Shown in pieces: positions 11,541 through 29,509 of a stretch of 33,193 bases of DNA. How positions within the stretch are numbered: the stretch's first letter is position 1; the number at the start of each line of letters is the position of its first letter. The position numbers and the translations under genes were made by a program. The stretch spans positions 1 to 33,193 of the IMG/VR virus record IMGVR_UViG_3300020453_000406. One strand, written 5' to 3'. Origin of the DNA: a virus. Under the pieces are notes generated by a model. It ran no database searches and had not been told where the DNA came from. It worked only from the letters and a program-made list of their open reading frames with translations.

Positions 11541-11544
11541 ATCA

Positions 11545-11629
11545 TGGGAGTGGAGAGACTTGAACTCTCACGTCATCAAATGACAACAGATTTTAAGTCT
11601 GGTGCGTCTACCTATTCCGCCACACTCCC
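11545..11629 (-). tRNA. tRNA-Leu (anticodon UAA)
   Basis: An 85-nt class II tRNA read on the minus strand. The acceptor stem GGGAGTG pairs fully with CACTCCC, followed by discriminator A. The D-arm GGCGGAATAGGTAGACGC is typical of tRNA-Leu. The anticodon loop CTTAAAA gives anticodon TAA, on a stem with 4 of 5 pairs (a C/T mismatch at 27-43). A long variable arm (GTCAT-TTG-ATGAC) is the leucine hallmark, and the T-arm GAGAG-TTCAAGT-CTCTC is perfect. The 3' CCA is not encoded. It would help read UUA codons, which are useful in an AT-rich phage. Its first 18 nt overlap the end of a small coding frame. Confidence 0.95.
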
Positions 11630-11788
11630 ATTAAGTTCCCAAGTGGGTGGATGAAATGCACAATACTCATTGAATGTGATTTTCATCTCTTTATTGCTTA
11701 GATTGCAATTTTTTGCTGCTTTTGGAAGATTCCACTTTGCAGTGAATAACATTTCCATAGATTGACGCGTTTCTGGTCTCATACTCAT
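11612..11788 (-). CDS. Small basic protein with possible helix-turn-helix (58 aa), ending inside tRNA-Leu
   Basis: The frame from ATG at 11788 reads MSMRPETRQSMEMLFTAKWN, then LPKAAKNCNLSNKEMKITFN and EYCAFHPPTWELNGSVAE. The segment W20 to Y42 (LPKAAKNCNLSNKEMKITF) resembles a Fis-type helix-turn-helix, with 'AAK.C.LS..EMK' matching the usual 'AA..LGIS...' pattern, so DNA binding is possible but unproven. A fair SD (TAGGTG) precedes the ATG. The last five codons and the TAG lie within the tRNA-Leu 5' half. A 67-codon frame with a TTG start overlaps it, but its sequence looks much less protein-like. The composition looks like a real small phage protein; I cannot name it. Confidence 0.6.
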   Translation of the reverse strand: MSMRPETRQSMEMLFTAKWNLPKAAKNCNLSNKEMKITFNEYCAFHPPTWELNGSVAE

Positions 11789-12196: not shown

Positions 12197-13309
12197 CTAA
12201 TCCTGGTATGAGGGGTCAGTGAGAATCTCAATGCAAGCTTCAAAACCTACTTTATCTTGTCCTGCCACAACTCTCATTCTCTTTCCAGACCATGTATTAA
12301 CAGCATGTGACTTCTTTTGTTTCTTAACTTCAACAGCTGCTTGATTAAATGATCCAACACCAACATCTTTTATATTTGACAATATACCAAATCTTAAATT
12401 TTCTACAATAGTTTTATTAGTAGAAATTGTGGTATTTTGTGATGATCCAGAAGTTGTATTGAAAGTAAAAACTTCACCAATCAATGGAGGTGATGGTGTG
12501 CATTGAACAAATGTATCTAAGTTTGGAACTGGTGCTGTAAGAGAAGTGTTTAAACCATTTGGAAAAAATGTATTGGCAAATCCAATGCCTTTATTGGATG
12601 ATGTAAGAATAACATTCGATGAATCACCAAATATATCATCTGTTCCAGGGTCAGGTGGTTCAAGATTGGGGTGGAAGTGCATCACATCAACATCCTTATA
12701 AATTGATGCTATTCCAATAAAATTAATAGTCTGATTAGAAGCATAAGCACTTCCACCAAAGTAAATAGTATTTCCTATACCAGATGAAAAACTTCTAGTA
12801 ATTGATCTTACAATACACGAAGTTGTAACTCCTACCTGTGGAGTAAAGTCAAAAGCAAGAACTCCAGATCCTCCACTAGCATCTGACACAGCGATACCAG
12901 CAGAAAAATTACCAGCTGGAGGATGAGTGCCAAGTCCTGTGAAACCAATGACAGGTGCTGCTTCCCTAAAGGAATAAAGTCCATCAGGATCAGTAAAGTC
13001 ACCATATATGCTGTTTAGTTTATTGATTGCATCACTTTCACTAGAATAAAATTCATAATTATTTAAAAAATTAGCTGCTGTTCCAGTGTTTACAACATTT
13101 TGTTTAGCCCCATTGATAGGATCAACAAATCTGCTCAAAATATTAGCATCTATCTTTGAGGCAGGTTGCTTAAACATCTCATACCTATCCTCATCAACCT
13201 TAACTTGAGTCACACTTTCAGGAAAATTAAGAGTCTGGTCAAGCGAAATAATTCTTGCTGATAAAATACCAACTGCCTCATCTTGATATGATGTTACTGC
13301 AAATCCCAT
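12197..13309 (-). CDS. Virion structural protein, baseplate/fibre-associated (370 aa)
   Basis: It starts MGFAVTSYQDEAVGILSARI and has a mixed N-terminal half (helical near FLNNYEFYSSESDAINKLNSIYG) and a beta-rich second half with many Gly, Ser, Thr and Ile. The C-terminus is basic and compact (VEVKKQKKSHAVNTWSGKRM, then GFEACIEILTDPSY). No catalytic or membrane motif is visible. It is the last gene of the run of overlapping structural genes (its ATG overlaps the upstream TAA as TAATG) and so is probably made late and built into the virion. I do not recognise a T4 counterpart. Its stop lies only 7 nt from the direct repeats of the early promoter region. Confidence 0.6.
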   Translation of the reverse strand: MGFAVTSYQDEAVGILSARIISLDQTLNFPESVTQVKVDEDRYEMFKQPASKIDANILSRFVDPINGAKQNVVNTGTAANFLNNYEFYSSESDAINKLNSIYGDFTDPDGLYSFREAAPVIGFTGLGTHPPAGNFSAGIAVSDASGGSGVLAFDFTPQVGVTTSCIVRSITRSFSSGIGNTIYFGGSAYASNQTINFIGIASIYKDVDVMHFHPNLEPPDPGTDDIFGDSSNVILTSSNKGIGFANTFFPNGLNTSLTAPVPNLDTFVQCTPSPPLIGEVFTFNTTSGSSQNTTISTNKTIVENLRFGILSNIKDVGVGSFNQAAVEVKKQKKSHAVNTWSGKRMRVVAGQDKVGFEACIEILTDPSYQD

Positions 13310-14208
13310 TAGTTTCCTCTCCTATCATAATCGTATCCAGCAATTGAGAAATGTGAGTTATCACCTGGGTAATCAGCAGGTGTTTCACCTTCATATTCAA
13401 CATGAAGTTTCTCTTCATATTGTCTAGCAGCCCATACTTGGTAGTAGCATTTTACTGGACCACCACTAGCATTCTTAATATAAACATTCTTACCCCACTC
13501 AATCTTTTCAACAAAAAGTTCTTGATAAGAACCAATTGGAGTGAGATGAACACTGATACTTTCTTTATCAACCAGACCATCCCAATAATCAGGGAGTTTT
13601 AAAAGATTACCTTCCAATTTACCTCTAACATAGATTGGACCATCCTCTGGACCCTCTACACAAATATGTCTTAATCTATGTCCCTCTTTGTTAGGATGCT
13701 TAATATCAAATCCCTTAGAAGAAGCATCTAATTTACTATTGATTTTTGTTGCTACATCACCCACTCCAGTGAGATTCATTGGACCAGTAAAGGTAAAGTT
13801 ACCATTGCAACTTAAGTTTCCAATAGCTTTAATATCACCAGTTGCTACAATATTACCAACAACATTAATATTTCCTGTAACATTTGTTGTATCAGCAAAA
13901 ACATTAAAGATAGGAATGTTGCCAGCACTATGTTGAAGATACATTTGTGCTGTTGAAACCCCATCACAATGAAATCCAACATAATTTGTCTCATTATTGT
14001 AAAGATAAGCACCAAGGTCTACGTTCTTAAACGCATAGTCACCAGGAACTGATTCAGTCCATGAACCTTCCATACTTGCTTTATCATAGTCATAGTTTGT
14101 AGAACTATTCTGTGGACCAGCAAATGTACCAAAGTTCTCAAATCTAAATGGAAGAGAACCCTCTACACCACCCTTAGGATTTCCTGGAAAAAGACCAGTC
14201 CAAGTCAT
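13309..14208 (-). CDS. Spike/fibre protein with hexapeptide stem and EGPE-VYxRG tip domain (299 aa)
   Basis: Three parts are visible. Residues 1-110 are a Tyr/Asn-rich N-terminal domain. Residues about 111-142 form an exact six-residue repeat, G-[N/D]-hydrophobic-x-x-x (GNINVV GNIVAT GDIKAI GNLSCN GNFTFT), which suits a trimeric beta-helix stem. Residues about 168-262 form a tip domain with CVEGPEDGPIYVRGKL, LPDYWDGLV and SISVHLTPIGSYQE. The same tip domain ends the neighbouring 227-aa protein. This domain is known from virion proteins of marine T4-like phages and some other large phages. The function is probably structural or receptor-contacting. A 37-residue acidic C-terminal tail follows (YEGETPADYPGDNSHFS). 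Confidence 0.7.
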   Translation of the reverse strand: MTWTGLFPGNPKGGVEGSLPFRFENFGTFAGPQNSSTNYDYDKASMEGSWTESVPGDYAFKNVDLGAYLYNNETNYVGFHCDGVSTAQMYLQHSAGNIPIFNVFADTTNVTGNINVVGNIVATGDIKAIGNLSCNGNFTFTGPMNLTGVGDVATKINSKLDASSKGFDIKHPNKEGHRLRHICVEGPEDGPIYVRGKLEGNLLKLPDYWDGLVDKESISVHLTPIGSYQELFVEKIEWGKNVYIKNASGGPVKCYYQVWAARQYEEKLHVEYEGETPADYPGDNSHFSIAGYDYDRRGN

Positions 14209-14888
14209 AATGGAACCTCTGTTACAAGTTTTTCTACATCATTTCTTTCTGCAAAGATATGGTAGTGACAATGAATAGGAAGACCTGGTTTTGCCTGAAC
14301 TACCACTTGATTATTTGCAACTCTCTTAACCATCAACCCCTGATCAATACCAACTGATGTTAGAGATACTGTAATAGAATTTGGTGAAACAATATCCTTC
14401 CAGACTTCTGGCAATTGAATTGTATCTTTATTCTTTAACACACCTCTAACATAGACAGCATTCTCTGGTCCTTCAAGACACGCATAAACTAGATTTGTAT
14501 TAGGAAGAGTTGGGTGTGGGATAGCAAAGTTCTTAATCTTTGCCATCAATACTTCAGTGTAGATTACTTTTGACTTAATAATCTTTACTGTAAGAAGGGT
14601 ATCTACCTTAAGGAAACTCTTGATCCTAGCAAATGTGGTGGCAAAGAATGCATAAAAAGGAGGACCAGCAAACGCAGGAGAAACAGTATCTGGATTGGCA
14701 GTTTGTCCTGCCATCAAACTTGCTCTCTCAAAAACTGGAACTGCAAACTGAGATGGATCACCCACCATCTCTGGACCCTCAATGTAAGAACTTCCTCTTA
14801 CCTTAGTGACCTCTCTACCAAATTGCTCTGGTTTTCCCTCACCAACTTCTAACTGTCCACCTACGTGAAAATTACCTACACTTGACAT
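14205..14888 (-). CDS. Virion protein with EGPE-VYxRG tip domain, paralogue of its neighbour (227 aa)
   Basis: Residues 1-120 form a mixed N-terminal region with a hydrophobic stretch (AFAGPPFYAFFATTF, about 72-86) and a short beta part (VDTLLTVKIIKSKVIYTEV). Residues about 121-214 are a tip domain with HPTLPN, ACLEGPENAVYVRGVL, LPEVWKDIV and SITVSLTSVGIDQG, ending HCHYHIFAER. It aligns end to end with the last domain of the 299-aa protein immediately downstream, so the pair arose by duplication. A strong Shine-Dalgarno (AGGAGG, 5 nt spacer) precedes the ATG, and the stop overlaps the next start as ATGA. Confidence 0.7.
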   Translation of the reverse strand: MSSVGNFHVGGQLEVGEGKPEQFGREVTKVRGSSYIEGPEMVGDPSQFAVPVFERASLMAGQTANPDTVSPAFAGPPFYAFFATTFARIKSFLKVDTLLTVKIIKSKVIYTEVLMAKIKNFAIPHPTLPNTNLVYACLEGPENAVYVRGVLKNKDTIQLPEVWKDIVSPNSITVSLTSVGIDQGLMVKRVANNQVVVQAKPGLPIHCHYHIFAERNDVEKLVTEVPL

Positions 14889-19973: not shown

Positions 19974-21285
19974 TCTTAACCCTATATGAGTCTCTCACTA
20001 ATGTGAGACTTGAAAAAGTGTCTTTTGGTGTAGTCCTATGACACACGTGAGCAATCATATACTCACCACTTGTTTCATTATTTATTGGACCAGTTGTATC
20101 TGCTGGACCAATTTGTGGGAAGATACATTTGATGATATCACCAGCCCTTAGAGAGAAGTCACCAGGAACTTTTATCTCAGTTTGAATAGTGAACAACTGG
20201 TTGTATCTCATCACAGATTGCACAAGGTTCTTAGTGGCAATATCATTTGGTTTTGGTACATTACCATCTCTAACACCTGGAATTTGATCATCACCAGTGC
20301 CTGGTTGATTCCAACCAACATCCAATACTCTTGACATTAATCTAGATGGTGTCTCAATGAGTTGAGGATTCAATAAGTTAGCAGCAGTTGCCTCTTCTTC
20401 ACCAGCAGTGGTGATCTTTCCAGATTGTTGTTTAGTGTCAAAACCCTGAACAACATAACTGAAACTCAATGGATCAAAAAATATGGTTCTGTTATTGTAA
20501 ACACCTAGTGCTAGATTCTGCTGAACATCAATGTCAGCATTGATTTTATATGATAATATCTTACCATCATAATCTTCATCATCAGGAAGTCCAATACTTC
20601 CTGTGTAAATATAAGTCTTTTTTGGTTCTTGGTCAAGAAGATTGTCAATAGATTTAAAAAAGTGTCCATCTAATGTTTGATAGAACATGTAACCTGCTGT
20701 CCCACCAAGAGCAGAACCTTGTCCAGATGAACCAGGAATTGCCTTGGATGCTAACCAAGTAAGAATATAAAACGCTTTCCTATCATTACCATAGAAGTTA
20801 TAGTTGCCTGTAGTATCATCAATGTCTATGTTAGTAATACCCAATAGGCTACTTATATCTGAAACATGAGTAGATATGGGAGCATCTTTGTATCTCTTAG
20901 TTATTCTCATCTGCTCATTAGCAAAGTATTCTCTTGAGGAAAAGTCAATAAAGAATACCTCTTGTGATGTCCCTGGTTGTGCGTTTCTTACTCTATTCAC
21001 ATAGAGTTCAAAAACCATCTCAGTCCCATAGTTATCAACTACAGTTATATCTGTTCTCTCACCACCCCTTATAGGAAGAGCATCAATAATACTTCCTTCT
21101 CCAACTTTACTTCCCTCTTGCACACCAGTATCAATTACAACTGCTGTTGCAGTTACAGTATTTGACAAGACACTTTCAAAGTATCTAAACTCAACAACAC
21201 TTGGTGAGATATCAATTGAAAAGTTTTTAGAATTAGAACTGATACTAAAATCTTTAATATCACCTGCTTCAGTAAGTTTTGGCAT
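19966..21285 (-). CDS. gp27-like baseplate hub protein (439 aa)
   Basis: The protein is beta-rich with alternating strands (NFSIDISPSVVEFRYFESVL, TATAVVIDTGVQEG, TDITVVDNYGTEMVFELYVN, EVFFIDFSSREYFANEQMRI), a Tyr/Phe-rich middle (YMFYQTLDGHFFKSIDNLLD) and a C-terminal motif (TIQTEIKVPGDFSLRAGDII, then EYMIAHVCHRTTPKDTFSSL). That pattern fits tail-hub proteins of the gp27/gpD type, where the C-terminal 'PG.....G' strand ends in 'Y.I..V.H'. Its length is near T4 gp27 (391 aa). It sits directly before the gp5-like gene, as expected for its partner, and directly after the tail-lysis protein gene with a TAATG overlap. A gp27 role is inferred from fold pattern and position. Confidence 0.65.
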   Translation of the reverse strand: MPKLTEAGDIKDFSISSNSKNFSIDISPSVVEFRYFESVLSNTVTATAVVIDTGVQEGSKVGEGSIIDALPIRGGERTDITVVDNYGTEMVFELYVNRVRNAQPGTSQEVFFIDFSSREYFANEQMRITKRYKDAPISTHVSDISSLLGITNIDIDDTTGNYNFYGNDRKAFYILTWLASKAIPGSSGQGSALGGTAGYMFYQTLDGHFFKSIDNLLDQEPKKTYIYTGSIGLPDDEDYDGKILSYKINADIDVQQNLALGVYNNRTIFFDPLSFSYVVQGFDTKQQSGKITTAGEEEATAANLLNPQLIETPSRLMSRVLDVGWNQPGTGDDQIPGVRDGNVPKPNDIATKNLVQSVMRYNQLFTIQTEIKVPGDFSLRAGDIIKCIFPQIGPADTTGPINNETSGEYMIAHVCHRTTPKDTFSSLTLVRDSYRVKND

Positions 21286-24200
21286 TATCCTACTTTATAA
21301 AGTAACCCTAAGAGTTGTTGTTTATAGTAACTATTTAACATGGATTTTGTAGAGACACCTGTCCTCATCACACTTGACTTCCTTCCACCACCTGGCATTA
21401 CAGGTTGTGGTTGTCCACTAGGTCCTATAATATACACATTATTATCTCCAAGATCATATGATGGATAATGTTCAATGTTTCTTGTAGCTGGACCAGGTGG
21501 CACTACACTAGGACTTGGTTGCATTTGTGCAGAGGGACCTTGTGTAATTTTTGGAGCAGCAGGTCTAGTGGTGACAGCAGAACCATCACCCATTCTACCA
21601 ATAACAAGATGCTTGATATATGGTTCAGGGTCTATGTCAGAACCTCCACCTCCCATGGCAGGTCTAACCTCAAAGTGTAAGTGTTCACCACTTCCTCTAC
21701 CTGTATTTCCAATCTCTCCAATAACTTCACCATTATATGGTGTACCCTTCTTTAATGGTGAGGGTTGAGCAAGGTGAGCAAACAAGAAGTCTTTATCACC
21801 AACATTAATGATGAGGGTATTACCATACCCACTCAAGTAAGAGTTCAAACTTACAGTGCCTTTTAACTTAAAAGCAACATACCATCCTTTCTGTTTTCCT
21901 GTTCCTATATCCACACCACCATGACTACCACTTCTTCCTCTTGTTCTCACTGGACCAGTTGCCTCACCATAATTTACAGTCATTGCCCTGTCTGATATCA
22001 CATCTGTCAATCCACTGTATGTTTCTGTTGTTGCAGGTGATGTCACAGGAGCACCAGGTTGTGTTGGTCCATGACTTGGATTAGGAACCATCTGAGAGAG
22101 TGCTGCTACTGGAGGAGAGGAGGAGACTGTCTGAGATGTTGTCTCTTCCATTTTTCTATTCAATCTCTTAGTTTGAGAAACCATAGTAGATCTAAACTCA
22201 TCTTCTGTAATTTTATTACCATCTGGATCAAAATACTTATCCTCACCCATACCAAAGAAATTTCTACCACTTACAAAAGTACCTACATTCTTTAACCTAA
22301 CAGATTCACCTGTACCTTTGTTACCACTCAATGCATCTATCTCTGTTACTTGTTTGCGCATGGTAGCAAGAGTTGCTTTTGCTGCTGTTGCTTCAGCAGT
22401 AGGTATCATTCTGGTTTGTGGTTGTGCTGCTGGTGGTTCTGCTGCTGGTGGTTGAGATGAAGCATTAGACAAATCAAGTTGCTTTGCAGCAGTCATAAAC
22501 TTATCAGCATTACCATCTTTATATGCTCCCCAAGCTTCATATCCTTGAGCATCAAAGATTGCTTTTGCAGCTCTTGCATTAGTCAATGGATCTTTCAGGT
22601 CATCATAAGAACTAAGACCAAACTGACTCACTCTAGCTGGTCCTAATTTATCATACATATTAATTTGCCACAGACCATAGGACAAATCTCTTGTTGCTGG
22701 ATTATCATTAACTATATCTGCTCTAAATGTAGATTCACCACCAGCAATTGCAGCCATTATCTTTGCTTGTTCAGGAGTAAAACCAGCTTGCATTGCAATT
22801 TTTGCAGTAGCCAATAACTTTTGATTTATAGTGCCACTTATTGGCACAGGACTACCACTTTGTGGTGCATTTTGTGGTCCTTGTTGTTGCTGTTGAACTG
22901 CTTGAGTGGGATCTTCAACCATTGCTGTCAATGGCGCATTACCACCACCTAAACCTGCAGGAGTTGATGATTCAAAATTAGGAGGGAAGAAAGAATCCTT
23001 TAGTATCTTTGCCTTGTCCAATATATTAAATGGATTTAACATCCAAAGTATATTGGGGATCTTGGGTTCCATCAGGAACTTCTTGATATTGTCTTTAGCT
23101 TCCTGAGAGACATATGGTAATCTGTCAATTAACCACTGCCATCCGCCACCTGGTTTAAGACCAGGCAGTTTAATCATTGGAATGTTCTTAAGCAACCTTG
23201 AGAATCCTGCCTTAAAGAAGTCAAGTATTTTACCACCAACATTCAATGCACTTTGAAACTTATCAAATATCTTTTTCTTAACTGCTTCTACACCACCACC
23301 TTGAGTAAGATCATATAATAACTCACCACCAAACTCACCCAACAAACCACCAACAATTGTTCCAACAACTGGAATTGGAATCAGTGTGCCAAGTGCTTCA
23401 CCAAGTCCAGTACCCACTGCCTTGAACAATGTTTTTGTTGGTGGATCACCAGACAGTAATGATGAGATTGCTACAATAATAGGACCAACAATAGGAATCT
23501 TGATTCCCTTTGCTGCCTTTGCAACACCCTTCATCATCTTACTGATGCCACCAAAATTCTTTGCTGCTTCTTTACCAAATAACTTTGTTATTAGTGTTCC
23601 AGGTGCCTTAACTGCTTTACTTACTGCACCACCAACAGCAGATGCTGTTTTTGTGATACCCTTGATTGCAGCAGATGCTGGTTTAGTAAGACTCTTAATT
23701 AAATTAAATGCACCTTTACCACCTCTCTTCAATAGGTTTCCAAGTTGACCTGCAAATTTGACTACGTTTTTAAGGAGTGGAACTTTCTTTGCAAAGTTTA
23801 CTATAGATCTAAAAATATTCTTACCAAAATCAAATATAGCAGTGCCCACAGACCTTAGCATCTTGCCAAGGTTCTTCACACCTGATACTAGAATTTTACC
23901 AGTGGTTTTGAATATAGTCTTAATGGTGCCTGTTATAAATCTCAGAACACCCTTGACAGCACCTTTTAATATCTTACCTACCAGTCCTAATCCCTTTCCA
24001 AATACTTGAAATGCACCTCTTGTAAGTGCGAATATAAGATAAAGATTATCTCTCAAGAACGTGAGAGCACCCATAATCTTCTTAAAGTTCTTAAGAAGGA
24101 AAAGAAGGATGCCACCTATTAAAATGTTTTTAATAAAGTCAAGGAAGTTAAACTTACCTGCTACACCACCTATGATACCTGAGAGAACTCCTGCTGCTCC

Positions 24201-24683
24201 CTTGACACCTTCAAGCAGTCTCTCTCTTCTTCTTCTCCTTGCAGCAGCAAGTTGTTTCCTTCTCTCTTTTGCTGCTTCAACTTCTGCCTGATACTGACCT
24301 TTTATTGCGTCATCAATTGACCCTGATATACTAACAAGATTGCCTACCTGAGTAGTGATCTTTTCAAATCCTACCTTTCCACCAGTTGATGTTACTTTTG
24401 GATCTCTAGGTTTGATGGGAGGTGCCTTTACAATAGCACTAACACCACCACCTTCCATTGACCTGGCAAGAGCACCACCTTTTGACTTAACAAGGGCACC
24501 ATCTTTTCCTGTGACTCTTGCTAGAGCACCTTTCTTCTTTTTCTGAAGAAACTGTTTTGCTTTATTCTTTGCTACATTCCTTGCTTTCTTTTTAAAAGCA
24601 TCAGTTGCAGTTTTCTTGAGACCCTGCTTGGCAGCACCTGCCAACAATCCCTTAGCACCAGCGAGAAGAAGTGGAAGTGCCAT
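21285..24683 (-). CDS. Large tail protein with lytic transglycosylase and M23 peptidase domains (1132 aa)
   Basis: The N-terminus is very basic (about 1-160, with KKKKGALARV and RRRRRER). A membrane segment follows (about 185-198, NILIGGILLFLLKN) and then long amphipathic or hydrophobic helices to about 460, as in tape-measure proteins. Residues about 620-735 are a lytic transglycosylase-like domain (AAIAGGESTF with catalytic Glu ~650; YGLWQINM 669-676). Residues about 900-1025 are an M23 zinc endopeptidase domain (HGGVD 921-925, FAH ~970, HLHFEVRP 1001-1008), with the expected H/D/H ligands present. It would cut both glycan strands and peptide cross-links during DNA entry. It lies between the second large tail protein and the hub genes. 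Confidence 0.85.
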   Translation of the reverse strand: MALPLLLAGAKGLLAGAAKQGLKKTATDAFKKKARNVAKNKAKQFLQKKKKGALARVTGKDGALVKSKGGALARSMEGGGVSAIVKAPPIKPRDPKVTSTGGKVGFEKITTQVGNLVSISGSIDDAIKGQYQAEVEAAKERRKQLAAARRRRRERLLEGVKGAAGVLSGIIGGVAGKFNFLDFIKNILIGGILLFLLKNFKKIMGALTFLRDNLYLIFALTRGAFQVFGKGLGLVGKILKGAVKGVLRFITGTIKTIFKTTGKILVSGVKNLGKMLRSVGTAIFDFGKNIFRSIVNFAKKVPLLKNVVKFAGQLGNLLKRGGKGAFNLIKSLTKPASAAIKGITKTASAVGGAVSKAVKAPGTLITKLFGKEAAKNFGGISKMMKGVAKAAKGIKIPIVGPIIVAISSLLSGDPPTKTLFKAVGTGLGEALGTLIPIPVVGTIVGGLLGEFGGELLYDLTQGGGVEAVKKKIFDKFQSALNVGGKILDFFKAGFSRLLKNIPMIKLPGLKPGGGWQWLIDRLPYVSQEAKDNIKKFLMEPKIPNILWMLNPFNILDKAKILKDSFFPPNFESSTPAGLGGGNAPLTAMVEDPTQAVQQQQQGPQNAPQSGSPVPISGTINQKLLATAKIAMQAGFTPEQAKIMAAIAGGESTFRADIVNDNPATRDLSYGLWQINMYDKLGPARVSQFGLSSYDDLKDPLTNARAAKAIFDAQGYEAWGAYKDGNADKFMTAAKQLDLSNASSQPPAAEPPAAQPQTRMIPTAEATAAKATLATMRKQVTEIDALSGNKGTGESVRLKNVGTFVSGRNFFGMGEDKYFDPDGNKITEDEFRSTMVSQTKRLNRKMEETTSQTVSSSPPVAALSQMVPNPSHGPTQPGAPVTSPATTETYSGLTDVISDRAMTVNYGEATGPVRTRGRSGSHGGVDIGTGKQKGWYVAFKLKGTVSLNSYLSGYGNTLIINVGDKDFLFAHLAQPSPLKKGTPYNGEVIGEIGNTGRGSGEHLHFEVRPAMGGGGSDIDPEPYIKHLVIGRMGDGSAVTTRPAAPKITQGPSAQMQPSPSVVPPGPATRNIEHYPSYDLGDNNVYIIGPSGQPQPVMPGGGRKSSVMRTGVSTKSMLNSYYKQQLLGLLYKVG

Positions 24684-24684
24684 T

Positions 24685-27600
24685 TTATCCTACCAGACTG
24701 TAGATGGATTTGATGATAAGAGTCTCAGTGTTCATAGAGTCTGTTGAATCAAAAACAGGAACAGTATTTTGAGCACCACCAGATGCTGCAGATTGTGGTG
24801 TTGCACCTGGTGGTACTTGTCTACCATTTTGTGCAGCAGTGGTGACAACAGAAGTAGATGGTTGTCTTGGTCCAGGTGAAACTCTAGTGGTTTGTGATGG
24901 AGAAATTGCAGATGATGGTGATGTAACTGTCTCCTTTGGAGACACTACCTGTGCTTGTTGACTCTTGAACTTACTCTCTGCTACCAGATATTTTTGTAAT
25001 TGAAATTGTAGTTTTGATGTAACTCTTGCACCATCAACACTAGTGCCTACTTGTGCTGAAAGAAATCTACTTCTCTGACTCTCAGACATACTTTGGAAGA
25101 CACCAAAATTAGATGCATCTACACCCTCTGCTGATTTAAACTCAGCAGGAGATGAAGGTTGAGAAACAGGTCCTCCTGATGTTTGTGGAGCAGAACCAGA
25201 TAAAAATGATTTAATTTTTGATCTCATTTGATCACCACCCTTGGACTTCACTTGTTGTGTAGACCAAAATCCACCAGGGTGACTATAAGGACCAGGGGTG
25301 AGGGAGTCTAGGTCCCATCTCTGCACTGGTGGAGGAAGTTTGCCAGTCTTTACAGCATATCTTTCCCACTCACCATGAGTCATTACATTCTTATCAACAT
25401 CACCAGCAGTCTGACCATATGCTCTCATCAATCCAGCTGCTTCTTTTGCCATGGCAGTTGTTTGAGCATTGGTAAGAGGACTTTCTGCCCATCCTTTTTT
25501 GTCATCATAATATCTTGGTGTCATTCCTGTATGACCCAAAGCAGCAGCAGATAATCCTACTGAATTTGTATTGGCACCTTTTGTATGTGAATTCTTATCT
25601 ACACCATAATTAACACCAGCAGTCATTGGTTTGCCAGCACCATTGAATACCTGATGATACTTACTTGAGTTTCCATTATGAAAACCACCAGTCCAATGTA
25701 AAAATATTTTTCTATTCTTAGGATCTCTAGGACTCCCTGCTGTTCCTCCTACAATACCACCATTTGAAAAACCAAGTATTTGTCTACCCTTGGTCATAGC
25801 CCAATCCAAACCTTTTTCAAGCATGGATCTATTGTCAACAGCAGGTTCTGATGATACTTTTTTTGTGGTAGGAGTGACAGAACTCTTTATTGGACTTGGA
25901 AGATTTGGAACAATGCCATACTCTCTCATCACTGACTCAATCTTACCAGGATATACTGAGTGTGGATTGTATCCTTCAGCAGCAATATTTCTGATGGCTT
26001 CACTTGGTGTTTTGGCAGAACCATAATATTGCTTCCAGAGTTTAACTCTGTACTTAACAGACTCATCAAAACTCTTGAACTTAATAGCAGTATGTTTTCC
26101 CTCAATAGGATCAATATAATCATATTTTCTTGATGCAGGATATGATGGAGGAGCATCCTGACCAAACAAATTAAATGCTTCCTTTGCAAGCATTGACTTA
26201 CCAAAGTTGCTCTCCTCTACTGCTTGTGCAGCAACAACTTCTGGGAATGGATCACCATACTTCTTAGCAGATTTGTATATTTGAGCAAAAAATTGTCCAA
26301 AAGAATCACTTGGTTTTTCATAGTTTGGATAACCAGGAACAGGACTTTTATAACTTAGATTGGAACCATATCCAACCATACCACCACCTTGCATACCAGT
26401 TACTGTGCCTTGCTTAGGAACATTTGTTCCACCACCTTCCTTGTTCATTGAAAGTAGTTTATTAGCACCATGATACTGAACAGCAGGTTTGCTCATTACA
26501 ATCTCACCAGGTTGCAATGCAACCATCTGAGTGTCAGCGCCCATGCCCCTCACTTTCTGTCCTGTGTTGCCACTAACCTTACCACCCTCTGACATGGTTT
26601 GGACATTCACATCTCCAACATTAGTGGTGTTGTTAAGAACCACACCACCACCTTCAAGTCCTTGAGCAGGTGTGCTCTTTGGTGGGGGTGGTTTCTGTTG
26701 ATTCTGAGGTAAGGTATTGAATGGATCAAAGAGTGGAATCTCAGGTATCTTTGGTATCTGAATTTGTGGCGCTTGATCTGGTATGTTGTTCAGAGGATTT
26801 TGTCCAAAGAGTTTCAAGACATCATTAATTCTATCTTCAATAAAATTAAAGGCACCATAGATTGGACCAATAACAAAGTTGCTTATTGGTTTAAGAATCC
26901 AAAAATTAAATTCATTGATAAATCCATTGATTGCTCTGATAATACCATTGAAAAATTCAAGAACACTATTGAAAGCGTCAATCAATGGTTGTAAAAATTT
27001 CTTAGGATTTTGAAGTAATTTAAGAAGAAACAGAAGAGCACCACCAAGAAGAATATTCTTGAAGAAATCCATGATCATGTCAAAGATACCCTTGACAGGT
27101 TTGACCACTTTCTTATTGATACTCTTATCAGTTTTATCTGCCCCTTTGTCCTCTAACTTTGCCTCTCTTGCTTTTCTTTTTTCTCTTGCCTCTAAAGTAT
27201 CTTCTTTCTGTTCTTCTTCTTTGTCAAGTCTGAATTGATTCTTGAGAGTCTCTAAGATACTCTTTAAATTTTCCTCAAGGTCAGTGAGTTTAAGAGATAC
27301 TTCATCAATACCTTTCTTGACGTCCTCCTGCTGATCCTCCTCCTTCTCTTCTTGTTGAGGAGTAGCAGTTCCTGGAAGTAAAAGTTGTGGTGAAACTTTT
27401 TCTTTAGTTTCCTTTGCTGTGTTTTGAGCAGTCTTGAGAAACTTTTCTTGTGATATTCTAGTGTCTTTTATATCTTGTTTTTTCTCTTCAGTTTTTTCTT
27501 TTGCCTTCTCTTGCTCAGCAAAAAATTTCTTTGCGTCAATCTTTGATTGTTCCTGACTCTCAGGTATCTTTATCTTCTTTATTCTAACAAACTCTTTTGT

Positions 27601-27783
27601 AAGAATTTCTATATCACCACTATCAACATCGCTGCCACTCATTCTAGCAGCAGCAATCTTCTCTCTTATTAGTGTTTTATATGTGCCAAAGTCAATGTCA
27701 CTTCCATCACTGATGCCAAGATAATCGCGCAAGATACCCTGATCAACTTCCTTGTTTACATCTGTTTGGGAATCAGTTGCCAT
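24685..27783 (-). CDS. Tape-measure-like tail protein with glucosaminidase and amidase domains (1032 aa)
   Basis: Residues 1-225 are charged and helical. A membrane segment lies at about 241-255 (KNILLGGALLFLLK), followed by further hydrophobic helices to about 325. Residues about 375-470 form a Gly-rich linker with the tape-measure-type motif GADTQMVALQPGEIVMSKP. Residues about 490-625 are a FlgJ-like glucosaminidase domain (AQAVEESNFGKS with Glu ~523/524; AFNLFG 536-541). Residues about 690-830 are an amidase_2-like domain (FLHWTGG with His 696; MTHGEW with His 803; RWDLD ~822-826). Its position directly after gp26 and the frameshift ORF is the classical place of a tape measure. It shares the membrane motif with the 1132-aa protein. 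Confidence 0.85.
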   Translation of the reverse strand: MATDSQTDVNKEVDQGILRDYLGISDGSDIDFGTYKTLIREKIAAARMSGSDVDSGDIEILTKEFVRIKKIKIPESQEQSKIDAKKFFAEQEKAKEKTEEKKQDIKDTRISQEKFLKTAQNTAKETKEKVSPQLLLPGTATPQQEEKEEDQQEDVKKGIDEVSLKLTDLEENLKSILETLKNQFRLDKEEEQKEDTLEAREKRKAREAKLEDKGADKTDKSINKKVVKPVKGIFDMIMDFFKNILLGGALLFLLKLLQNPKKFLQPLIDAFNSVLEFFNGIIRAINGFINEFNFWILKPISNFVIGPIYGAFNFIEDRINDVLKLFGQNPLNNIPDQAPQIQIPKIPEIPLFDPFNTLPQNQQKPPPPKSTPAQGLEGGGVVLNNTTNVGDVNVQTMSEGGKVSGNTGQKVRGMGADTQMVALQPGEIVMSKPAVQYHGANKLLSMNKEGGGTNVPKQGTVTGMQGGGMVGYGSNLSYKSPVPGYPNYEKPSDSFGQFFAQIYKSAKKYGDPFPEVVAAQAVEESNFGKSMLAKEAFNLFGQDAPPSYPASRKYDYIDPIEGKHTAIKFKSFDESVKYRVKLWKQYYGSAKTPSEAIRNIAAEGYNPHSVYPGKIESVMREYGIVPNLPSPIKSSVTPTTKKVSSEPAVDNRSMLEKGLDWAMTKGRQILGFSNGGIVGGTAGSPRDPKNRKIFLHWTGGFHNGNSSKYHQVFNGAGKPMTAGVNYGVDKNSHTKGANTNSVGLSAAALGHTGMTPRYYDDKKGWAESPLTNAQTTAMAKEAAGLMRAYGQTAGDVDKNVMTHGEWERYAVKTGKLPPPVQRWDLDSLTPGPYSHPGGFWSTQQVKSKGGDQMRSKIKSFLSGSAPQTSGGPVSQPSSPAEFKSAEGVDASNFGVFQSMSESQRSRFLSAQVGTSVDGARVTSKLQFQLQKYLVAESKFKSQQAQVVSPKETVTSPSSAISPSQTTRVSPGPRQPSTSVVTTAAQNGRQVPPGATPQSAASGGAQNTVPVFDSTDSMNTETLIIKSIYSLVG

Positions 27784-27953
27784 TACTTTTTCTTTGCCTT
27801 TTCCTCTTCTTCTTTAAGATGTTGCTCAAGTAAAATAGTATATACTTCCCTCTCCCAAGGGATCAAATTTTCAATCTCAGTCAATGAGTATTTATGGTAC
27901 TGCATCAAGGCAAAATTTAGTTTATAGTATGACATCATATCCATATGTGCCAT
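27783..27953 (-). CDS. Small tail-assembly chaperone extension ORF in the -1 frame of gp26 (56 aa)
   Basis: The frame reads MAHMDMMSYYKLNFALMQYH, KYSLTEIENLIPWEREVYTI, LLEQHLKEEEEKAKKK. Its 'YKLNFALMQYHKYSLTEIENLIPWE' pattern and length recall the T/E' parts of tail-assembly chaperones. It is in the -1 frame relative to gp26 and is open upstream through the slippery site at 27962-27968. It has no useful Shine-Dalgarno: the only AGGG touches the ATG. It is therefore probably made mainly as a C-terminal extension of gp26 (about 296 aa). Its TAA overlaps the start of the tape-measure-like gene (TAATG). If made alone it would begin at 27953. Confidence 0.75.
   Translation of the reverse strand: MAHMDMMSYYKLNFALMQYHKYSLTEIENLIPWEREVYTILLEQHLKEEEEKAKKK
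27889..27896 (-). promoter_or_regulatory. Possible internal late promoter (CATAAATA)
   Basis: CATAAATA on the minus strand, about 105 nt before the tape-measure-like gene start and inside the 56-aa ORF. It matches 7 of 8 bases of the late consensus, but in AT-rich coding sequence it could be chance. Confidence 0.3.
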
Positions 27954-27955
27954 CC

Positions 27956-28672
27956 CTATGCGAAAAAACTTGAGAGTCCCTCCAATGTGACTTTGTTCTT
28001 CTTTTTTGTCTTTGGATTTTTCACATCAATAGTGTGAGAAAGTTTTGGCATTGTGCTAAAGAACTTCTCAATCTCTTTGAACTGCGTTGAGTTTAACTGC
28101 TCAAGAAATTCCTTTACCTCTTGAGGACTTACATCACCTGTAGACCATACCTCATCACTATCATAGATTTTATCAATACAAGTTCCAATCAGATCAAATG
28201 ATTGATCAAGATCTGGGTCTTCAAATTCAAAATTGTTTCTGATAAACTGATCAAGAGATGGATACTTCATATCCATGAAGTAAGTATCATCAAGTTTAAC
28301 AGTCTTTGTATGATTTTCATCTGTGATAACTTGAATGTCATCAAGATTGATTGACACCTTTACTTCAGTCTCACCATCATCTGGACAGACAATGTTTACA
28401 TCCACAACCTCTCCTACAGACTTCCCTCTGATATTCAAGAAGAGATATTCAATATCAAAAGTTGGTAGTTGGTCAACCTTAACATCCTTTGTCAAGATAC
28501 AATCACTGATGACTGCTTTGATTGCTGAAGTAATTTGCTGTGAGTCCTCTGACTCAAGTGCAATCACAAGTAGTTTTTCTTCCTTAACAAGGAAAGGTCT
28601 ATAACTAATTGTTTTTCCTGAAGAAGGCAAATCCAACTCAAATGTTGGTGTTACAATTTTTGGTAAAGGCAT
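27956..28672 (-). CDS. 26: gp26-like baseplate hub / tail-assembly chaperone protein (238 aa)
   Basis: MPLPKIVTPTFELDLPSSGK, ISYRPFLVKEEKLLVIALES, SAIKAVISDCIL and LPTFDIEYLFLNIRGKSVGE are characteristic of the T4 baseplate protein family that contains gp26 ('RPF.VKEEK.L..A.E', 'FD.EYLF..IR.KS.GE'). Its length is near that of T4 gp26 (208 aa). The middle is acidic with beta strands (EVKVSINLDDIQVI), and the C-terminus is helical and basic (EFLEQLNSTQFKEIEKFFST, KNPKTKKKNKVTLEG). It lies between the gp54-like gene and the tape-measure-like gene and ends at a probable frameshift site, so I infer a tail-assembly chaperone role as well. CTAAATA and an AGGA ribosome site lie upstream. Confidence 0.85.
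   Translation of the reverse strand: MPLPKIVTPTFELDLPSSGKTISYRPFLVKEEKLLVIALESEDSQQITSAIKAVISDCILTKDVKVDQLPTFDIEYLFLNIRGKSVGEVVDVNIVCPDDGETEVKVSINLDDIQVITDENHTKTVKLDDTYFMDMKYPSLDQFIRNNFEFEDPDLDQSFDLIGTCIDKIYDSDEVWSTGDVSPQEVKEFLEQLNSTQFKEIEKFFSTMPKLSHTIDVKNPKTKKKNKVTLEGLSSFFA
27962..27983 (-). promoter_or_regulatory. Probable programmed -1 frameshift site at the end of gp26
   Basis: On the minus strand, SD-like GGAGGG (27983-27978), a 9-nt spacer, then the heptamer T TTT TTC (27968-27962) in the gp26 frame (AGT TTT TTC GCA TAG). A -1 slip gives TTT TTT CGC ATA GGG ATG and runs into the 56-aa ORF. The layout resembles the dnaX frameshift site, which has an SD-like element about 10 nt upstream. 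No strong downstream hairpin is obvious. Confidence 0.75.
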
Positions 28673-28699: not shown

Positions 28700-28706
28700 T
28701 ATTTAG
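28700..28706 (-). promoter_or_regulatory. Possible late promoter (CTAAATA) for gp26
   Basis: CTAAATA on the minus strand, 28 nt before the gp26 ATG and overlapping the TAA stop of the gp54-like gene. It resembles a late-promoter variant of T4-like phages; a matching first base is missing. Confidence 0.4.
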
Positions 28707-29509
28707 GCAGTATTTTGTTGCATAAAATTAAGTTCTGGATTAACCTTTCCATCACCTGGTTTGAAGTTAAGGAAGTTCTGAGACAGAAGAGAATTGAATA
28801 AGGTGGGTACAGGACTTTGTTCTTCTTGTTTCTTCTCAGTGTCAATGGTTGCTGGATTGTATGGTTCAGTCACATATCTGACAAATGAGAAGTTCACTGT
28901 TAGTTTGAGAAGATCAGTTGCACCATAACTGATGTCCATTGGGTTCATGGAGATAGGAAATCCCTGAATTAAAGTGTATTTGATACTTTGTTTTGTTGTA
29001 ACATCTCTTTCAAATTTATATAATTCAATTAGATTTTGAGATCTATAACCTTTACCCAGTTCACCAGGATCAGAATCAGGATAACTCATCCTAAATCCAT
29101 TCCTAAAGTTTTTATAACTTTCATTACTTCCTCTATCACCAATCTGTTTTCCAGCAATATAGTCCATCCATCCCTCAAAGAAGTGAAGGGTCTTATAGTC
29201 AGGATCAACAATCATTGACACAGACATCGTCTCATCATACATCCTCCTATATGCCATCTTTTCAGTGACACCCATGAAGTCTGATGTCACATCATGAGTG
29301 GCAAATGAAGATCCAGGAAGAGTGGCATCAGTGCAAGAAATATTAATTCTTTCTTTCAGATTTGCATCAACCAGTACATTTTTTTTCTGACCAATGTAAG
29401 TTGATACAGCTCCAGGTAAATTAATAGACAGAAAGTATTGTGAAGTTGTTGCATTGTGCAGCAACTTTTGTCTCAAACTATCTGTAGTGTACCTTGATAT
29501 CCCTGCCAT
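28703..29509 (-). CDS. Baseplate-tail tube junction protein, gp54-like tube fold (268 aa)
   Basis: The protein resembles the tail-tube fold shared by T4 gp19, gp48 and gp54. It has an N-terminal helix (YTTDSLRQKLL), strands (TSQYFLSINLPG, RINISCTDATLPGSSFATHD), a typical strand-helix (ETMSVSMIVDPDYKTLHFFE, GWMDYI, residues 93-118) and C-terminal strands (YTLIQGFPISMNP, LLKLTVNFSFVRYVTEP). gp48 is recognised separately on the opposite strand, so this is best read as the gp54 counterpart (tail tube initiator). T4 gp54 is 320 aa, so it is somewhat shorter. It is the first gene of the minus-strand run, and no late octamer or clear SD precedes its ATG. Confidence in the fold is good, in the exact name moderate. 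Confidence 0.65.
   Translation of the reverse strand: MAGISRYTTDSLRQKLLHNATTSQYFLSINLPGAVSTYIGQKKNVLVDANLKERINISCTDATLPGSSFATHDVTSDFMGVTEKMAYRRMYDETMSVSMIVDPDYKTLHFFEGWMDYIAGKQIGDRGSNESYKNFRNGFRMSYPDSDPGELGKGYRSQNLIELYKFERDVTTKQSIKYTLIQGFPISMNPMDISYGATDLLKLTVNFSFVRYVTEPYNPATIDTEKKQEEQSPVPTLFNSLLSQNFLNFKPGDGKVNPELNFMQQNTA

Follow-up and report, generated by a model that had tools for sequence, protein, structure and literature searches.

The 3' end of gp26 in the marine T4-like phage analysed here raises the question of how the short open reading frame (ORF) behind it is expressed, whether as a small gene of its own or, through a programmed ribosomal frameshift, as the C-terminal part of a longer gp26 protein. 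In T4 itself gp26 and gp51 are listed as hub-assembly chaperones, gp51 being needed for assembly and missing from the final particle (PMC3004832). A preliminary description of the window (the whole stretch of DNA analysed, 33,193 nt, IMG/VR record IMGVR_UViG_3300020453_000406) had placed a -1 frameshift at the end of gp26, with gp26 as the counterpart of lambda G and a fusion of about 296 aa as that of lambda GT. The conservation of the signal, the existence of extensions that are constrained although they have no start codon, and homology to T4 gp51 all support this assignment, and we conclude from sequence comparison that a programmed -1 ribosomal frameshift very probably yields a 296-aa gp51-like (GT/TAC-NC) fusion beside the 238-aa gp26 (G/TAC-N). 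The elements concerned are the following:

28703..29509, minus strand: gene for a tail tube-like protein, immediately upstream of gp26 (phrog_45, PF23849)
28672..27956, minus strand: gp26, the short chaperone form (G/TAC-N-like), 238 aa (ORF, Pfam and PHROGs)
28001..28007, minus strand: another possible slip site, A AAA AAG, in frame, not conserved
27983..27978, minus strand: Shine-Dalgarno (SD)-like GGAGGG, putative -1 stimulator (sequence, and anti-SD duplex energy in relatives)
27968..27962, minus strand: slippery heptamer T TTT TTC (sequence and conservation)
27958..27956, minus strand: zero-frame stop TAG of gp26, one codon past the heptamer (sequence and conservation)
27924..27959, minus strand: predicted 3' hairpin, -9.6 kcal/mol, its first base 2 nt past the heptamer (folding)
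27942..27957, minus strand: AGGG and two ATGs (27953, 27944), which may serve as a weak start of their own for a 53-56-aa product (sequence, not conserved)
27783..27962, minus strand: -1-frame extension, 59 codons and TAA, C-terminal domain of the predicted long form (GT/TAC-NC) (phrog_634, 'gp51' fragment)
24685..27783, minus strand: 1032-aa ORF, tape-measure candidate with a glucosaminidase domain, its start on the extension stop (TAATG)

The gp26 3' end reads GGAGGG ACTCTCAAG T TTT TTC GCA TAG, and the end of gp26, the heptamer, the coordinates and the reading frame are as first described, as is the GGAGGG at 27983..27978, separated from the heptamer by a spacer of exactly 9 nt. The product of a -1 slip would read FF-RIGMAHMDMM... 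for 59 codons and close at the TAA at 27785..27783; the last A of this stop doubles as the first base of the ATG that opens the 1032-aa ORF (TAATG), bearing out the earlier observation that the -1 frame ends on the start of a tape-measure-like gene, and the predicted fusion comes to 237 + 59 = 296 aa, the length originally estimated. Among the 10,692 codons of the window ORFs, T TTT TTC occurs in frame only this once. The A AAA AAG at 28007..28001, which lies 13 codons upstream of T TTT TTC and is followed by an open -1 frame, was also considered as a slip site and rejected, being absent from every other locus among 143.

Profile searches indicate what the two reading frames encode. The gp26 of the window matches the Pfam family T4_baseplate (PF12322, E=5.5e-75, 252 bits against a curated cut-off of 24.5) and the PHROGs family phrog_150 (E=6.7e-80), and the extension matches phrog_634, 'baseplate hub assembly catalyst' (E=3.4e-26), as well as the C-terminal end of the gp26 profile (phrog_150 positions 239-282, E=4.7e-5). 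In T4, gp26 (208 aa) matches PF12322 across its full length, and gp51 (249 aa) matches PF12322 over residues 1-201 and phrog_150 as far as profile position 280, while its C-terminus matches phrog_634. When the predicted fusions were made into a profile, this too aligned with T4 gp51 across the junction. These matches identify T4 gp51 as a gp26 paralogue that already has the same extension domain joined to it in frame. When nine phages were searched whole, T4 had two PF12322 genes and the other eight one each. The small ORF was also considered as a full-length gp51, which it is not, since it matches only the C-terminal part of the 249-aa T4 protein; the 56-aa 'gp51' genes of the databases are fragments of the predicted frameshift product.

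Phage records disagree on where the 'gp51 / baseplate hub assembly catalyst' gene starts, and that of S-CAM1 omits the gene, apparently because there is no consistent start codon. None of the phage records examined joins the 'gp51' ORF to gp26.

The preliminary description had proposed alignment of the junction in related genomes as a check, and heptamer, SD-like element and frame all proved to be conserved or enriched. The junction is common to all 80 of 80 close relatives in IMG/VR. In a wider set, whose loci span distinct families and are related, so that the counts are not independent events, T TTT TTN stands in frame at the gp26 end in 143 of 144 distinct loci (TTTTTTC in 140 of them), the downstream ORF lies in the -1 frame in 142 of the 143 heptamer loci, and exactly one codon separates heptamer from stop in 134. 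Codon choice indicates selection on the heptamer beyond its amino acids: the junction pair is TTT TTC in 140/143 loci, against 2/160 for the other Phe-Phe pairs of the same gp26 genes (TTC TTT 102, TTT TTT 42, TTC TTC 14, TTT TTC 2), and the codon before the Phe pair has T as its third base in every locus, whether it encodes Ser, Asp, Ala, Asn or Gly. A -1-frame stop lies no more than 8 codons upstream of the heptamer in 82% of loci, which places the slip in or right before the heptamer. Members of the set include Caulobacter Cr30, Stenotrophomonas Yut2, Vibrio ValKK3, VmeM-32, Aeromonas 65 and Rhizobium I34, among which the last base of the heptamer is C, T or G (T TTT TTG in Rhizobium I34). 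Outside the set, the Salmonella jumbo phage SD-6_S16 (Asteriusvirus, locus L197, ~2140-2160), whose gp26 relative is barely detectable, carries CAT TTT TTC GAG TAATG with the -1 frame open.

Among the alternatives, the one that survives best, though we regard it as improbable, is translational coupling, with termination at the TAG and reinitiation at 27953 or 27944 behind the AGGG giving a separate gp51 of 53-56 aa. The window itself lends it some material, its ATGs lying 2 and 11 nt past the gp26 stop and its AGGG (27957..27954) 9 nt ahead of the in-frame ATG 27944; a 53-aa stand-alone product from this possible weak start is conceivable in this one genome, where the earlier remark that the small ORF lacks a good ribosome site was accordingly too strong. 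As a general mode in the clade, an independent start of the small ORF was rejected on the extensions that have none: 30 of 142 loci lack an ATG in the first 9 extension codons, and 20 lack ATG, GTG and TTG in the first 18, yet in those 20 loci pN/pS past the stop is 0.32 in the -1 frame, while the remaining two frames give 1.29 and 1.53; this supports the view that in some relatives the extension is translated although it has no start codon. Coupling also leaves unexplained both the T TTT TTC codon choice and the SD-like element, whose position suits the heptamer and is 24 nt away from the first ATG, and T4 gp51, as a full-length fusion, speaks against it too.

Three exceptions among the relatives speak for coupling or for routes of a similar kind. 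A separate ORF with no heptamer, the arrangement that the preliminary description had named as contradicting a frameshift, was looked for and is approached in two distant phages only, not in the clade: Vibrio K445 (L085, ~3672), which has a single PF12322 gene, and Pseudomonas Cygsa01 (L193, ~1809) have no T6 run and show a TAATG overlap between gp26 and the gp51-like ORF, and these two may use reinitiation, a possible third route to the second product. In Synechococcus phage S-SCSM1 (MK867354.2, L089), the second ORF lies outside the -1 frame: an 11-nt insertion, AATCCTAATAG, past the gp26 stop (after position 2493) puts the extension in +1, so that a -1 slip there yields only RLES*. This phage retains the SD-like element, the heptamer and the palindrome, and its insertion could be a sequencing error, the mark of a broken copy, or a sign of another expression route.

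The sequences around the heptamer resemble a ribosomal frameshift signal of the dnaX kind. In E. coli dnaX an SD-like sequence about 10 nt upstream, an X XXY YYZ heptamer and a 3' stem-loop make up the signal, and the window has counterparts of the first two and a predicted one of the third, with the differences that dnaX uses A AAA AAG and the window T TTT TTC, that the hairpin in the clade of the window is weaker and not universal, and that the predicted frameshift product here gains a domain rather than losing one. Among the relatives, the mean duplex energy with the 3' end of 16S rRNA reaches about -7 kcal/mol at 11-12 nt before the heptamer (gene-body mean +0.1), and anti-SD pairing of -5 kcal/mol or stronger is present in 79% of loci as compared with 11.5% of background windows. 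Local folding energy corrected for G+C shows its strongest dip just past the heptamer. For a 36-nt window beginning 6 nt past the heptamer, codon-preserving randomisation gave z = -1.93 +/- 0.13 over 126 representatives, with p<=0.05 in 49% of loci under this null; windows between 36 and 72 nt, and the one at 108 nt, were flat, and a weaker second dip appeared at 84-96 nt. Stem haplotypes vary on both arms together (GATCC/GGATC, GGTCC/GGACC, GGTTC/GAACC), and shuffling of blocks with the arms kept intact revealed a modest excess of pairing (mean pairs 3.46 vs 3.19, the maximum of 2000 shuffles being 3.34). Taken alone, the hairpin of the window is modest (-9.6 kcal/mol, z=-1.66), and in many loci the hairpin is weak or absent. 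One hairpin common to all loci was rejected, as the 5-bp palindrome fits about half of them and the others use different stems. We treat the hairpin as a lineage-dependent putative enhancer, and these folding results support it as a third dnaX-like element, one that the preliminary description had missed.

The same elements bear on RNA polymerase slippage on the T6 run, in which a U added to the mRNA would give the same fusion. A run of six Ts could slip in principle, but it is short for transcriptional slippage, and both the constant spacing of the SD-like element and the 3' hairpin point to the ribosome. The run, moreover, keeps step with the two Phe codons, opening on the third base of the preceding codon in all loci, and it seldom grows because it is kept in that register with a last base C in 140/143; we consider this explanation very unlikely. 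That the junction is conserved merely by protein constraint (a C-terminal SSFFA) and overlapping extension coding, with no functional shift, would account for some codon choices, the overlap encoding both frames, but has next to no probability given the rarity of TTT TTC at Phe-Phe pairs elsewhere (2/160) and the constraint that persists in the -1 frame past the overlap in loci without a start.

With a programmed frameshift as the preferred explanation, expression of the locus may be pictured as follows. Most ribosomes would read gp26 to the TAG and release the 238-aa short form, while some would pause at T TTT TTC, held by pairing of GGAGGG with 16S rRNA upstream and by the hairpin just downstream. 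On slipping back one base, the two Phe tRNAs would re-pair from TTT TTC to TTT TTT, and the slipped ribosomes would add 59 codons to give the 296-aa fusion. By homology, T4 gp26 is the counterpart of the short form and T4 gp51 that of the fusion. Their joint role is presumably that of lambda G/GT (TAC-N/TAC-NC), in which case the tape measure protein would be coated by the short form and the extension would recruit tail tube subunits or the hub. We infer the production of the fusion, its ratio and its binding partners. T4 makes the equivalent two products from two paralogous genes, without a slip site.

A short form and a C-terminally extended form with a common N-terminal domain are present as coding potential in this clade and as two genes in T4. 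Neither T4 nor six two-gene relatives have a T6 run at the gp26 end, which instead reads TTC TTT in T4 and Klebsiella P545 and TTC TTC in Erwinia COW86c, and T4 and these relatives each have a gp51, 248-257 aa long, that includes the extension in frame. The slip site is missing where a second gene supplies the long form. It is an even call whether the full cassette (SD-like element, T TTT TTC and lineage-shifting hairpin) is the ancestral mode of gp26/gp51 expression in T4-like and related phages, lost when duplication in the T4 lineage gave rise to 26 and 51, with a stop/start overlap taking its place in phages like Cygsa01 and K445. If so, a single homologous system would hold three interchangeable answers to one two-protein problem.

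The existence of a chaperone pair in T4-like phages has already been published. In 2022, Vladimirov, Gautam and Davidson (Virology 566:9) reportedly established which proteins serve T4-like phages as tail assembly chaperones, with gp26/gp51 as TAC-N/TAC-NC. A further source states that some T4-like phages have separate short and fused genes in place of frameshifting (PMC10885494), and another, citing Vladimirov et al., mentions that the TAC-N genes of T4-like phages contain poly-T slippery signals (PMC12846349). In the literature searched, which covered few subscription papers, we found no description of stimulators or of a cyanophage signal. What is added here, given that the pair was known, is a complete description of the signal and of how it is conserved rather than a new kind of system. 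T4 gp26/gp51 belong to the same families as the products of the window (PF12322/phrog_150, with the extension resembling the gp51 C-terminus), but T4 obtains its long form from a second gene without a slip site, whereas the phage of the window has one gene and a frameshift signal. By analogy, lambda G/GT resembles the window in its short and fused forms, its overlapping ORFs, its -1 shift near the end of the first ORF and its position after the tail tube gene (PMC5009743), and differs from it in that the slip site of the window is T TTT TTC with an SD-like putative stimulator and a hairpin; the ratio of the two forms in lambda is 30:1 (PMC5009743). In Vandenendeviridae and Andersonviridae, phage families other than that of the window and likened to it by slip-site layout, a -1 shift occurs at a T run (motif GTTTTT) ending TAC-N, and the downstream piece is likewise mis-annotated as a separate gene (PMC12846349). 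The present proposal offers a source for gp51, a long-puzzling hub assembly protein, in widespread marine T4-like phages, and comparison with T4, which has two genes and lacks the slip site, amounts to a natural experiment in how phages fix the proportions of two paired chaperones.

As for the function of the pair, public annotation of Acinetobacter phage Lazarus labels both gp26 and gp51 tape measure protein assembly chaperones. For an AlphaFold model of gp26 (pLDDT 85.7), the best-ranking PDB entry is 2OB9, a tail assembly chaperone of HK97 (probability 0.91, E 0.43, not significant), followed by YqbN 3KLU (E 1.1, not significant); these chaperone-fold matches are suggestive at the level of a predicted structure. 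A sequence search of solved structures with gp26 and T4 gp51 gave no matches. The listing of the T4 proteins as hub chaperones, the Lazarus annotation and the suggestive fold matches together make a lambda G/GT-like role for the pair likely.

The 1032-aa ORF behind the extension has a hydrophobic stretch at about residues 237-316, and it is tape-measure-like by this stretch and by position; to call it the tape measure is to guess from its location. The adjacent large ORFs at 21285-24683 (SLT and M23) and 24685-27783 (glucosaminidase and a weak amidase), both on the minus strand, carry peptidoglycan-cleaving domains and have a weakly similar stretch in common (E 6.6e-4), and either could be the tape measure. 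Further along the minus strand, the neighbouring genes at 13309-14208 and 14205-14888 both match phrog_17490 (unknown function) and look like a tandem duplication, and a tRNA-Leu gene with anticodon TAA (11544-11630, minus strand) lies among the structural genes.
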